From contig JADFOP010000040.1 of NCBI GenBank assembly GCA_022562795.1, positions 1 through 18,894 on the forward strand: 18,894 bases of DNA, given 5' to 3'. The notes under the pieces are model-generated. The model had not been told where the DNA came from and did not search any database. It saw only the letters and a program-made list of their open reading frames with translations. This DNA is from Nitrospinota bacterium. Lineage in GTDB: Bacteria > JADFOP01. The translations under genes were made by a program, and so were the position numbers. Of the stretch, positions 3,725 through 18,894 are shown piece after piece; within the stretch, counting starts at the first letter, position 1, and each line of letters starts with the position of its first letter.

Positions 3725-4012
3725 ATGAGCAAGGTCTATAAGACGCTCCACCACCCCGTCGGAAGCTATTCGATGCCCTGGTTCGAAATCAAAGGGGGCA
3801 AACTGTACCCCACGCCAGGCAATCCGGAATGTAAAAACAACAATAACTCCCCGTGGTTTGAGGTCAAGGGGAGCGAAATCTACCCCACCGCCCACCATCC
3901 CCAAGGCCACCAGCGGCTCCCCTGGTTCGAGATCAAGGGGAATAAAATCTATAAAACCCTCCACCACCCAAGGTACGAACCCTCCCCGTTCTTTGAGATA
4001 AGGGACCGGTAA
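3725..4012 (+). CDS. Four-repeat beta-type protein, function unknown
   Basis: This 95-aa protein is almost entirely four copies of one unit of 21-25 residues. The unit pattern is [VLI]Y[KP]T-x-[HG][HN]P, then 4-8 variable residues, then P[WF]FE[IV][KR] and usually G. The copies begin at V4, L27, I52 and I75. There is no signal peptide or membrane segment, so it is probably cytoplasmic. Alternating aromatic and charged residues suggest beta hairpins that could close as a fourfold-symmetric ring; this is inference. The ATG follows AAGGTGA at 3714-3720. It sits between a perfect hairpin and a cluster of palindromes, with no close partner gene. I recognise the repeat style from uncharacterised bacterial proteins but know no function. 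Confidence 0.65.
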   Translation: MSKVYKTLHHPVGSYSMPWFEIKGGKLYPTPGNPECKNNNNSPWFEVKGSEIYPTAHHPQGHQRLPWFEIKGNKIYKTLHHPRYEPSPFFEIRDR

Positions 4013-4945: not shown

Positions 4946-5224
4946 ATGGAATATCCCGAGTGCTTCAGTGATATGGGCCACAAAATTTACTGCCTCGGCT
5001 ACGATCCGGCCGCCGATGGCATGAGCGACGAGCATCGGTCCGAGGCCGTCCGCCGGGAGGCTATCGCCTGTCACGCCTGCCCGGTCTTCGACCCCTGCTG
5101 GAAGATCTCTTTGAACAGCGGGGTGCACGGCAGCGAGCTCAACGTTGCCGAGAGGCTCACCGGCATCGAGGGCGCCCTTGGCGGCCGAGGCCCCAATTCA
5201 ACAGGCTTCGGCAGGTTGCATTGA
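4946..5224 (+). CDS. Small cysteine-cluster protein with WhiB-like spacing
   Basis: The 92-aa product has five cysteines: C6, C16, then C42-x2-C45-P-V-x3-C51-W. The run CxxCPVxxxC followed by a hydrophobic residue is the spacing of the [4Fe-4S]-binding segment in actinobacterial WhiB proteins, with one or both of C6 and C16 as possible further ligands. The WhiB G[VI]WGG turn is not seen, although GVHGSE at about 59-64 lies in the equivalent place. No basic DNA-binding tail is present. A small Fe-S or zinc protein is likely; a redox sensor role is inference. AGGAG at 4933-4937 is 8 bases before the ATG. It lies just upstream of pepA, which has its own promoter-like sequence. Confidence 0.7.
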   Translation: MEYPECFSDMGHKIYCLGYDPAADGMSDEHRSEAVRREAIACHACPVFDPCWKISLNSGVHGSELNVAERLTGIEGALGGRGPNSTGFGRLH

Positions 5225-14879: not shown

Positions 14880-14955
14880 TGGTAGGCGGCGAAGGACTCG
14901 AACCTTCAACCTACGGATTAAGAGTCCGTTGCTCTGCCAGTTGAGCTAGCCGCCC
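14880..14955 (-). tRNA. tRNA-Lys (CUU anticodon)
   Basis: Full cloverleaf on the minus strand. The acceptor GGGCGGC pairs with GCCGCCT (first pair G-T). The D arm is GCTC/GAGC, and the anticodon stem ACGGA/TCCGT holds loop CTCTTAA, anticodon CTT. The T arm is GAAGG-TTCGAGT-CCTTC. Discriminator A and CCA are encoded. It is the first gene of the long minus-strand block. Confidence 0.96.
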
Positions 14956-15402: not shown

Positions 15403-16548
15403 ATGACGGGGTTGCTCATTTTATTTCTCGTGACAGCATCGATTCTGTGGGTCTCTCTCTTCGGTTATCTATTGGCCCTTGTCTTTTTTGCCTCGCGTCG
15501 ACATCGTGACGATCTAGGTGCTTCAGCCTTGCCTGAAATTGCGGTCGTCGTGCCGACCCTAAACGAAGAGGAGCTAATTTTAGCCAAGATCGCCGATCTG
15601 CGGCGTACCGACTACCCCAGCGACCGGATGACAGTTGTGGTGGTCGATGGAGGGTCGGTCGATCAGACCACGAAACTCATACGTCAGGAGATCGCACGGG
15701 GGGAGCCAATCCATCTTGTCTCCCTGAACGGCGCTCGAGGAAAGTCGTACCAGATCAATCATGTGCTTGGAATCTTGACGCAGGATATCGTTGTATTCAC
15801 TGATGTGGATTCGGTGCTCGAACCTTCCTGTATTAGGGAACTCATCAGCGTGTTAGAGCGCGACCCAAACACAGCGGTAGCTGGCGCCACCGTGCGGCCT
15901 GATACCGCTCTCCTGGAAGAACGCATTCATTGGTGGTTTCAAAATTATTTATGGTGGCTTGAGGGCGAGGTCCTGTCATCTGCTGGTGTCAGTGGGGTCT
16001 GCTTTGCCGTACGGCGAGAGACTGTTCTACCCCTCCCACAGGATGCCTATGCTGACGACGTCCACGTCGCTTTCGCCGCTGGGGCTCGGGGCTTTCGTGC
16101 GCGCCTCTGTCGCAAGGCGCACGCAACAGAAATCCGCGTCCCCCAGACGGCGAGCGAGTTCGTGCAATTTCGGCGTCGCCGTGGATCGGTCTACCTGTCC
16201 GAGCTGCTGCGCCCGTCGAAGGACCTCCACCCTCCCGTGAGCTGGAAGCTGGCGCGGCTGATGCGGCTGTGGCACTTCCTGGTGACGCCGAAGGTCGGGG
16301 TCGTCCTGGCCGTCTCAGCCTGCGTGCTCCTCGGGACGCCCTACTGGCACTGGCCGCTGTTGACCTTCGCTGCCTTCGCCGCTCCAGCATGTGCGGCCCT
16401 GATTGCTTCCAAGACTCTGGCGGTCGAAAGGAGCGGGTGGTGGAGCTTGAACCTGGCTGCAAGCCGATTGTTGGTCCTTAACTTGGTATCCATGTTGACG
16501 TTGAAATACCGCCCCCCAGTACGGGGTCCCGTGGGAGGGAAACCATGA
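15403..16548 (+). CDS. Membrane-anchored family 2 glycosyltransferase
   Basis: A 381-aa processive-type glycosyltransferase. One N-terminal membrane helix (about 3-30) precedes a GT-A domain: VVVPTLNEE (48-56), D82 in VVVDGGS, the metal-binding D134-V-D136, D218-D219 in the YADDV acceptor-site motif, and Q255-FRRRR, which resembles the QxxRW motif. About three C-terminal hydrophobic segments follow (about 289-305, 312-333 and 348-370). The layout resembles hyaluronan or polysaccharide synthases, or lipid-linked sugar transferases; donor and acceptor are unknown. GGGGAG lies 6 bases before the ATG. The stop overlaps the next start (ATGA), so it is translationally coupled to the first radical SAM gene. 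Confidence 0.9.
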   Translation: MTGLLILFLVTASILWVSLFGYLLALVFFASRRHRDDLGASALPEIAVVVPTLNEEELILAKIADLRRTDYPSDRMTVVVVDGGSVDQTTKLIRQEIARGEPIHLVSLNGARGKSYQINHVLGILTQDIVVFTDVDSVLEPSCIRELISVLERDPNTAVAGATVRPDTALLEERIHWWFQNYLWWLEGEVLSSAGVSGVCFAVRRETVLPLPQDAYADDVHVAFAAGARGFRARLCRKAHATEIRVPQTASEFVQFRRRRGSVYLSELLRPSKDLHPPVSWKLARLMRLWHFLVTPKVGVVLAVSACVLLGTPYWHWPLLTFAAFAAPACAALIASKTLAVERSGWWSLNLAASRLLVLNLVSMLTLKYRPPVRGPVGGKP

Positions 16549-17549
16549 TTCGTTCCCGTCATCTCAAGATGGCCTCACGCTTTCTTGCCCACCGCTTCCG
16601 GGAGCTGCACCCCTTCGAGGTCCAGGCCAGCCTCTTAAACGCCTGCAACCTCCGGTGCGTCTACTGCTGTTGCCCCGATATTAAGACTCGGATGATGACG
16701 ACGGAGCAGTGGAAGACTATAATCCGCAGTCTTGGAGCTCTTGGTACGATGCGCATCAAGTTCCAGGGGGGCGAGCCCACCCTCCGGGCGGATTTCCGAG
16801 ACCTGTGTTCCGAGGTTCAGAAAGCCGGGATTATTTGCGCTGTTATCACTCATGGGCTCGAAGTCGCCAACAAACCAGAGTTGCTCGATTATCTCGACGA
16901 AATCGTTTTCAGCTTGGACTCGGCAACCCCAGAGATCAACGATTCTCTTCGCGGTCAGGGGACGCATGCCGAAGCTGTCAAAGCGATCGACATCGCGCGT
17001 CATCGCGGTCTACGGACCTATTTGAGTATGGTTGTCAACAAGGAGACACTCGGTGAGGTGGAGGCCCTGCTGGAGTTCTGTGAGGCCCGGGGAGTGGGGT
17101 TTCACGCCCAGCCGATTATCTTCGGGAGGCAATACTTCGACGAGACGGCGCGGCGTTTAGCGTTGACAGACGAAGAGGTGAGGGCCCTGCATAAACGTCT
17201 TGCGGGGTGGAAGTCCCAGGGTCGCCGATTAATGTTTTCGGTACGATCCTACGAGAAAACATTGGAATGGAAGGATTACGGCGAGCTTGCGATACAGAGT
17301 CCGGGCGAGTCTTCGTGTATGGCAGGCAAAGATTACATCCACATCGAACCTAACGGCGACGTACTCCCGTGCAATCAGCATGGGGCAAACTTCACCCCAA
17401 AAAATATAATTAAGGATGGGCTGGATGAGGCACTTCGCCACACACGACGGCACAACTGTGGAGATTGCTTTTCGGTCTTTTTGAATGAGCGGAAGGCCTT
17501 GTTCGGTCTCAGGCCAGCGGCGCTCCGGGAGGTTGTTCGGCGGGGCTGA
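16545..17549 (+). CDS. Radical SAM protein with auxiliary cysteine cluster (paralogue 1)
   Basis: A 334-aa radical SAM enzyme. The [4Fe-4S]/SAM motif is C34-x3-C38-x2-C41 (CNLRCVYC), followed by QGGEPTLR, the usual GGEP SAM-contact motif. The C-terminal part has C258, C276 (PNGDVLPC) and C305-x2-C308, a SPASM/twitch-like set that probably binds one auxiliary Fe-S cluster. The substrate is unknown. Its ATG overlaps the stop of the glycosyltransferase gene. It is clearly related to the next gene, with the same 18- and 29-residue intervals between auxiliary cysteines. The basic N-terminus (MIRSRHLKMASRFLAHRFREL) could be an amphipathic membrane-contact helix. Confidence 0.88.
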   Translation: MIRSRHLKMASRFLAHRFRELHPFEVQASLLNACNLRCVYCCCPDIKTRMMTTEQWKTIIRSLGALGTMRIKFQGGEPTLRADFRDLCSEVQKAGIICAVITHGLEVANKPELLDYLDEIVFSLDSATPEINDSLRGQGTHAEAVKAIDIARHRGLRTYLSMVVNKETLGEVEALLEFCEARGVGFHAQPIIFGRQYFDETARRLALTDEEVRALHKRLAGWKSQGRRLMFSVRSYEKTLEWKDYGELAIQSPGESSCMAGKDYIHIEPNGDVLPCNQHGANFTPKNIIKDGLDEALRHTRRHNCGDCFSVFLNERKALFGLRPAALREVVRRG

Positions 17550-17586
17550 GGCCTCTCGGCCTGAATATGGAACCCAAGGAGACAAT

Positions 17587-18636
17587 ATGCGGATTGTGAA
17601 CACCATGCGGTACGCGGGCCAGATGGTGGCGAGTCGTCTGGCCGGTACACCGAGGCTGGTCTTAGCATCTATCTATCCGACACACCACTGCAACCTACGC
17701 TGCACGTACTGCAGCTCTCCTTATCTCAAGACGCCCGAACTCACAACCGACCAGTGGCTGGCGGTGGTCGACGAGCTGGCCGACCTTGGTTGCCGTCGCG
17801 TCGCCATTCTCGGAGGTGAACCTCTGGTGCGGAAAGATGTGCCGGACCTAATCGCGAGGGTGCGGGAGCGGGGCATGTCATGTGTGCTGACCTCGAACGG
17901 AGTACTTGTACCTCGGCTGGTCGATCGCCTGCGCCTGCTCAACACTCTCGTCCTCAGCCTCGATGCTGTAGGAGAGGCGAATGATGAGGTGCGCGGCGCC
18001 GGGGTTTTTGAGGCGGTCAAAGATGCCCTTGCGGCTGCCAGGGGAGCGGACATCCCGGTCAAAATCAACGCCGTGCTCTCTGCAAAAACGGCCCCGATGC
18101 TCGATGAATTGCTCGCGTTCATCGAACAGCACGATCTCTACCTTACCCTGAATATCATGCGGTCTGGGGATTCCAACCTCTGGCACAACGCCGACAGTAT
18201 CAAGGCCGAAGACGACGAAATCCGAAAGGTTTGCCATCGGATGGCGAGCCTGACACGGACTAACCCGCGGATACTCTTTTCGGAGACCACCTTCCGCTAC
18301 GCCGCCCGCTGGGACGACTACTCTCGCGATCGATACGAGGCCGATGAGCTCCCGGCGGACGACCCGCTCCTGCGCGATGGTCCAAAGTGTCAAGCCGGTC
18401 GCTACTATATGACCATCAATCCCGACGGGACGGTGTATCCCTGCGTAATGACCGTCGGGAGTATTCCAGGTGGCAACGTCGTGACCGATGGTGTGGAAGC
18501 AGCCTGGCGCCAACTGCACGGGCACCGGTGCGTGGCCTGTTATTCGCCCTGTCTGGTGGAAAATAATTACCTCTTCTCGCTCAAGCCCCGGGTAGTGGTA
18601 AATTTTGTGGCCAAACATTTGACTCGATTTTTTTAG
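17587..18636 (+). CDS. Radical SAM protein with auxiliary cysteine cluster (paralogue 2)
   Basis: A 349-aa radical SAM enzyme. I chose ATG 17587 because AAGGAG (17576-17581) lies 5 bases before it; an earlier in-frame start would overlap the previous gene. The motif is C35-x3-C39-x2-C42 (CNLRCTYC), followed by LGGEPLVRKD. Auxiliary cysteines are C268, C286 (PDGTVYPC), C315-x2-C318 and C322. Spacings of 18 and 29 residues match paralogue 1, which lacks the last cysteine. An N-terminal helix and a hydrophobic or basic tail (RVVVNFVAKHLTRFF) suggest membrane contact. It starts 37 bases after paralogue 1. The enzymes probably act in sequence or on related sites of one product; the reaction is unknown. 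Confidence 0.88.
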   Translation: MRIVNTMRYAGQMVASRLAGTPRLVLASIYPTHHCNLRCTYCSSPYLKTPELTTDQWLAVVDELADLGCRRVAILGGEPLVRKDVPDLIARVRERGMSCVLTSNGVLVPRLVDRLRLLNTLVLSLDAVGEANDEVRGAGVFEAVKDALAAARGADIPVKINAVLSAKTAPMLDELLAFIEQHDLYLTLNIMRSGDSNLWHNADSIKAEDDEIRKVCHRMASLTRTNPRILFSETTFRYAARWDDYSRDRYEADELPADDPLLRDGPKCQAGRYYMTINPDGTVYPCVMTVGSIPGGNVVTDGVEAAWRQLHGHRCVACYSPCLVENNYLFSLKPRVVVNFVAKHLTRFF

Positions 18637-18718: not shown

Positions 18719-18894
18719 TCAAGATGGTTCGTTCCGGGCGCCCTTGGATTTCCGGGTGCAATTTTTTAAGAAGTTTAAACTCTCCCGTTGGTTATCCCGA
18801 GTTAAGATGTCACTAGCAAGCCTCCCGCCCTCCTTCCTCGTTAGTGCGCTGGAGCCGTAGATGGAGCGTTGGTCGCAGTCCGGTGTGGCTTTCC
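18719..18894 (-). CDS. Possible C-terminal end of a gene entering from the right edge
   Basis: On the minus strand one frame is open from the window edge for 58 codons to TGA 18721-18719. It reads ...DCDQRSIYGSSALTRKEGG... and ends KSKGARNEPS. No family is recognised. It would converge with the radical SAM operon. An open frame of this length in a fragment is weak evidence, so this may be chance. Confidence 0.2.
   Translation of the reverse strand, partial: KATPDCDQRSIYGSSALTRKEGGRLASDILTRDNQRESLNFLKNCTRKSKGARNEPS

Follow-up and report, generated by a model that had tools for sequence, protein, structure and literature searches.

A candidate operon of a membrane glycosyltransferase and two paralogous radical SAM enzymes, possibly for tailoring of a lipid-linked glycan, in a Nitrospinota bacterium

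What is known of radical SAM enzymes acting on sugars comes mainly from antibiotic pathways and from free sugars or nucleotide-sugars, and the BtrN-type twitch dehydrogenases combine a four-cysteine auxiliary cluster with a sugar-like (cyclitol) substrate. In the mycofactocin pathway, a radical SAM peptide maturase (MftC) works together with a family 2 glycosyltransferase (MftF), and the adenosyl-hopene transferase HpnH is a radical SAM enzyme of a membrane-lipid pathway. To our knowledge, neither a family 2 glycosyltransferase nor a tandem paralogue lies beside the gene for the cytosylglucuronate decarboxylase BlsE, and the archaeal glycosyltransferase PcManGT has no radical SAM partner. BlsE (PDB 7vob) acts on a sugar, with decarboxylation of glucuronate reported and two clusters suggested (PMC3715490). 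PcManGT (PDB 6yv7), from Pyrobaculum calidifontis, is named as a transmembrane enzyme of N-glycan biosynthesis in the title of Gandini et al. (2020), as cited in PMC8993221, where it is also suggested to be a homologue of AglC and where its mannosyltransferase function is stated to have resisted experimental confirmation.

The stretch of DNA analysed here (the window) comprises 18,894 nucleotides of contig JADFOP010000040.1 from a Nitrospinota bacterium (assembly GCA_022562795.1) and contains a trio of genes, GT2, rSAM1 and rSAM2, which joins enzymes of these known kinds. A sequence-only reading of the window had described a glycosyltransferase gene overlapping or closely followed by two paralogous radical SAM genes, and had named no characterised system with exactly this set. 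The open reading frames lie as described, all three products have Pfam matches, and no system of this kind was found in the literature as searched on radical SAM enzymes with surface glycans or on the Candidatus Tectomicrobia. The features of the locus are listed by position:

14880–14955, minus strand: tRNA-Lys(CTT) flanking the operon, a rearrangement point relative to the congener
15403–16548, plus strand: GT2, membrane glycosyltransferase of 381 aa; Pfam PF00535 (Glycos_transf_2), E 1.3e-21
16545–16548, plus strand: stop codon of GT2 and start codon of rSAM1 overlapping in ATGA, read from the sequence
16545–17549, plus strand: rSAM1, 334 aa; Pfam PF04055 (Radical_SAM), E 2.1e-24
17575–17582, plus strand: AAGGAGA-type ribosome-binding site upstream of the rSAM2 ATG at 17587, read from the sequence
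17587–18636, plus strand (frame open from 17485): rSAM2, 349 aa if translated from 17587; Pfam PF04055, E 2.2e-24

Judged from the ATGA overlap, GT2 and rSAM1 are likely to be translationally coupled. The first ATG of the rSAM2 frame, at 17485, falls inside rSAM1; the start is most likely at 17587, since an AAGGAGA motif precedes that position and the protein aligns with its orthologue over the full length from there, which would place 37 nt between the two radical SAM genes. The neighbourhood beyond position 18,894, for which a survey had been proposed, consists of about 0.8 kb of contig that crosses an N gap and reaches an unrelated partial gene, and the operon therefore ends with rSAM2, as far as visible.

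GT2 had been read as membrane-embedded, in agreement with its hydrophobic segments, one at the N-terminus and about three towards the C-terminus, and its domain plan consists of an N-terminal transmembrane helix, a GT-A domain and C-terminal membrane helices. Membership of glycosyltransferase family 2 is indicated by the PF00535 match, by the catalytic motifs DVD (DXD-type) and ADD, with D134, D218 and D219 invariant in the alignment, and by the GT-A fold of the AF2 model (pLDDT 79). The clearly best fold match of this model was PcManGT (Z 31.6, 327 residues, rmsd 3.5), followed by hyaluronan synthase (Z 24.5), and phmmer aligned GT2 with PcManGT at E 1.6e-16 and 22–23% identity. The minimal cellulose-synthase-like fold with an N-terminal transmembrane helix and C-terminal membrane helices, characteristic of PcManGT/AglC-like enzymes, is thus found in GT2 as well, with residues 333–381 of the model poorly predicted, although PcManGT is archaeal and GT2 belongs to a bacterial operon. 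The predicted role of GT2 is transfer of a sugar onto a polyprenyl-linked acceptor.

The two radical SAM proteins are 31% identical over about 330 aa and hence paralogous; the genome has 24 Radical_SAM matches, and within it rSAM1 matches rSAM2 best by a wide margin. The CxxxCxxC cysteines are C34/C38/C41 in rSAM1 and C35/C39/C42 in rSAM2, both proteins carry GGEP, and the auxiliary cysteines are C258/C276/C305/C308 and C268/C286/C315/C318, respectively. The three cluster cysteines, GGEP and the four auxiliary cysteines are retained in all 17 aligned family members, so that the CxxxCxxC and GGE(P) signatures of the superfamily are present throughout; a fifth cysteine, C322, occurs in both rSAM2 orthologues and several other members and is absent from rSAM1. 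The intervals of 18 and 29 residues between auxiliary cysteines are identical in the two proteins, as had been noted from the letters, but the observation carries less weight given that the spacing is family-wide (18, 28–30 and 3 in 17/17 members; C-x17-C-x(27-29)-C-x2-C), and for the same reason identical intervals were rejected as evidence that the two proteins share a substrate. The full SPASM pattern (CX9-15GX4C ... CX2CX5CX3C ... C) is absent, with only C268, C286, C315 and C318 invariant, and the Pfam SPASM model scored 22.7 and 31.0 against a cut-off of 21.5, yet spanned just positions 1–47 of 67. The predicted auxiliary site is therefore a twitch, i.e. a four-cysteine half-SPASM after the barrel with a single auxiliary cluster, and not a full SPASM.

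The barrel of rSAM1 was assigned from PF04055, a structure model having been made for rSAM2 alone of the pair. The rSAM2 model (AF2, pLDDT 92 overall) is a radical SAM barrel with many radical SAM chains at Z > 20. Among the matches listed, with families absent from the lists remaining possible, BlsE was the top full-length match (Z 25.7, 295 residues, rmsd 3.2) and tied as the best with SkfB (Z 25.1), ahead of SuiB (24.2) and viperin-like enzymes (23.9), with PqqE also among the close folds; BtrN, a shorter protein, gave a lower fold score (Z 16.0 over 213 residues). BlsE and rSAM2 also share a radical SAM core with extra C-terminal cluster cysteines. This likeness to an enzyme of glucuronate decarboxylation with two suggested clusters (PMC3715490), and the lack of a transmembrane segment in either radical SAM protein, would suit a pathway in which the pair tailors a soluble nucleotide-sugar, the unusual sugar then being attached by GT2 to a lipid or glycan. 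Such a pathway is nevertheless rather unlikely, as rSAM2 scored only 47.6 bits against the BlsE equivalog TIGR04466 (cut-off 400) and as the cationic N-terminal helix suggests a role at a surface, for example in membrane docking.

SkfB, which ties with BlsE, is a peptide enzyme, and the fold therefore favours neither a sugar nor a peptide substrate. A RiPP pathway, in which the two radical SAM enzymes mature a ribosomal peptide and GT2 glycosylates it, would be consistent with the closeness of the SkfB, SuiB and PqqE folds and would have a precedent in the coupling of MftC with MftF. However, the Pfam scan found no RRE/PqqD leader-binding domain in either protein, with only about 25 residues ahead of the barrel, and the second cluster of a full SPASM is lacking. 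No MftA-like precursor was found, the mycofactocin models scored 84–91 against a cut-off of 265 (MftC) and 55.8 against 280 (MftF), and the window and the second trio locus described below share no small open reading frame, a comparison that a distant or very short precursor could escape. The peptide substrate that the sequence-only reading had allowed for finds no support here, and a RiPP pathway appears decidedly improbable. More generally, neither radical SAM protein reached the curated NCBIfam cut-offs for MoaA, PqqE, mycofactocin, HpnH or BlsE, and among the curated families listed there is therefore none of known, unrelated reaction to which they would belong. This outcome favours the sequence-only reading, as does the conservation of the trio described below.

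Membrane-contact helices had been proposed for both radical SAM proteins. A cationic, amphipathic stretch is present at the N-terminus of each, and at the C-terminus too in rSAM2, whose two stretches are helices in the AF2 model, but transmembrane segments are absent from both proteins; contact through the terminal helices is possible from these features. The amphipathic helices could equally belong to a module that modifies a membrane lipid (isoprenoid, hopanoid or ether lipid) by a radical reaction of the HpnH or tetraether-synthase kind, with GT2 adding a head-group sugar. A weak match of rSAM2 to HpnH (TIGR03470, 48.7 bits), whose alignment includes the N-terminal helix, and the presence of GDGT-MAS in the rSAM2 fold list (Z 18.6, 246 residues) point the same way, yet the HpnH score is far under the cut-off of 225, the GDGT-MAS score is well under that of the best fold match, and no lipid-biosynthesis neighbour was seen at either trio locus, leaving a lipid substrate improbable.

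Conservation among relatives, on which the sequence-only reading had staked its proposal, was found in a distant lineage: a Candidatus Tectomicrobia genome (G050; JACPUC010000014.1) carries the orthologous genes in the same GT2–rSAM1–rSAM2 order, including the ATGA overlap of GT2 and rSAM1. Identities between the two loci are 35% for GT2, 37% for rSAM1 and 41% for rSAM2, against 29% for non-corresponding radical SAM proteins across the two species. In a maximum-likelihood tree, rSAM1 paired with rSAM1 (100/99) and rSAM2 with rSAM2 (98/97), and all four clustered together with weaker support (82/89). This pairing indicates that the duplication had taken place before the two loci diverged, and that the trio behaves as a unit, and an old one. 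The retention of order, overlap and orthologue pairing across distant lineages also argues against the absence of any joint pathway, i.e. tandem radical SAM enzymes of separate function co-inherited with GT2 by chance, and such a coincidence is the least probable of the explanations weighed, even considering the diverse neighbours of other family members.

The complete trio was present in two of the 386 sampled genomes (that of the window and G050), and a radical SAM match at E 1e-40 or better in 10 of the 386, the window's genome included. Phylum searches around G050, G026 and G288 (one to three genomes each) yielded no further trio, nor did a second genome sample around G050. Scans with single proteins against named genomes and viral contigs gave no matches, the plasmid search gave one remote mycofactocin-type match, and the phage search gave none. 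In a two-sequence profile search the Tectomicrobia copy was the only close match, the other 27 being remote radical SAM proteins, most of them aligned partly. Looser arrangements were observed in G026, in which one radical SAM gene with a partial SPASM match comes after a GT2 that is 36–41% identical to those of the two trios, and at another G026 locus and a G311 locus, where a GT2 adjoins another radical SAM gene; the closest GT2 homologues outside the trios (G026 C48 and C115) also lie beside radical SAM genes.

Across the wider radical SAM family, many neighbouring genes are carbohydrate-related, but not all. Family members co-occur with a carbamoyltransferase in three genomes, at least two of which add a GH57-like gene to this pair, with an FAD mutase-like protein (named by eye from sequence) in two genomes and with DUF362 in four; PMT_2-type membrane transferases adjoin some of them, and one such transferase lies just downstream of the Tectomicrobia trio. 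These varied, often carbohydrate-related neighbours suggest a family that probably takes part in several pathways, glycans being their recurrent theme. At individual loci of related genomes (L031, L109 and L110), a NodU/CmcH-type carbamoyltransferase is the immediate neighbour of the family gene, and in L031 and L109 a GH57-like gene lies on the opposite side. A DUF362 gene is directly upstream of the family member in L051, L052 and L054, Pfam-confirmed in L054 only, and a 6-kb cluster in L053 (5658–11576) contains four family members and a B12-binding-type radical SAM gene beside a gene judged by eye to be heptosyltransferase-like.

The PcManGT-like fold of GT2 and the carbohydrate-active neighbours of several relatives strengthen the earlier guess of a radical modification of a lipid-linked or surface glycan, the reaction itself being conjectural. 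The preferred reading, to which a probability of roughly 0.42 is assigned, is an accessory, probably acquired operon in which a lipid-linked glycan is extended by GT2 and oxidatively tailored by the two radical SAM enzymes; the occurrence of other family members beside DUF362 or non-glycan genes, the restriction of the complete trio to two genomes, the tie of BlsE with a peptide enzyme and the failure to confirm the function of PcManGT by experiment (PMC8993221) speak against it. We infer the acceptor, the membrane docking and the type of reaction as follows. GT2, its fold modelled, would use a nucleotide-sugar as donor and glycosylate a lipid-linked acceptor on the cytoplasmic side of the membrane, the activity supposed for PcManGT/AglC-type enzymes. 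The radical SAM enzymes, perhaps held at the membrane by their cationic terminal helices, would each use the CxxxCxxC cluster and SAM to form a 5'-deoxyadenosyl radical, which would abstract a hydrogen from the sugar or from its lipid, and the four-cysteine auxiliary cluster would accept the electron. By analogy with BtrN and BlsE, the net outcome would be an oxidation, for instance a dehydrogenation or a decarboxylation. Action of the two enzymes at successive sites or positions would explain why two diverged paralogues are conserved. The product may then be exported to the cell surface; the PMT_2-type transferase encoded just downstream of the Tectomicrobia trio could use it. A fuller formulation, of a horizontally moving pathway in which two successive membrane-working radical SAM enzymes modify the sugar of a polyprenyl-linked glycan supplied by the PcManGT-like GT2, is doubtful. 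A conserved combination of a lipid-linked-glycan GT2 with two radical SAM enzymes would suggest that uncultured bacteria carry out radical chemistry on glycans bound to the membrane, and would offer a defined, testable three-gene set for an otherwise unassigned radical SAM family spread over several uncultured lineages.

Neither of the two nearest relatives, a congener (G001) and a genome of the same class (G002), gave an rSAM2 or GT2 match at the thresholds used, absence from the congener being uncertain since that genome is 85% complete. The trigger-factor gene of the congener (78% identical) is flanked by tRNA-Leu, tRNA-Lys, tRNA-Arg and tRNA-His, and the operon of the window follows tRNA-Lys. 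The tRNA-Arg/His pair lies inside another contig here, which identifies the operon site as a rearrangement point; a simple insertion beside the tRNA was considered and is not supported, for the same reason. Third-position GC is 0.65–0.69 in the three operon genes versus 0.77–0.91 in seven neighbouring genes. The absence from the nearest relatives, the low GC3 and the rearrangement point at tRNA-Lys together suggest an accessory operon, probably acquired horizontally, at a rearrangement-prone tRNA site.

In another genome, at L047 (8456–12035, minus strand), a radical SAM gene of the same family has DUF362 and a deoxyhypusine-synthase-like gene as neighbours and lies immediately downstream of tig-clpP-clpX, housekeeping genes that are also near the operon in the window. 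Elsewhere in the window, a small four-cysteine protein (4946–5224, plus strand) has a weak WhiB-like match (17.4 bits, under the cut-off of 23.6), and a 95-aa open reading frame (3725–4012, plus strand), matching no Pfam family above cut-off, contains about three and a half units resembling PWFEIKGxKIYxTxHHP.
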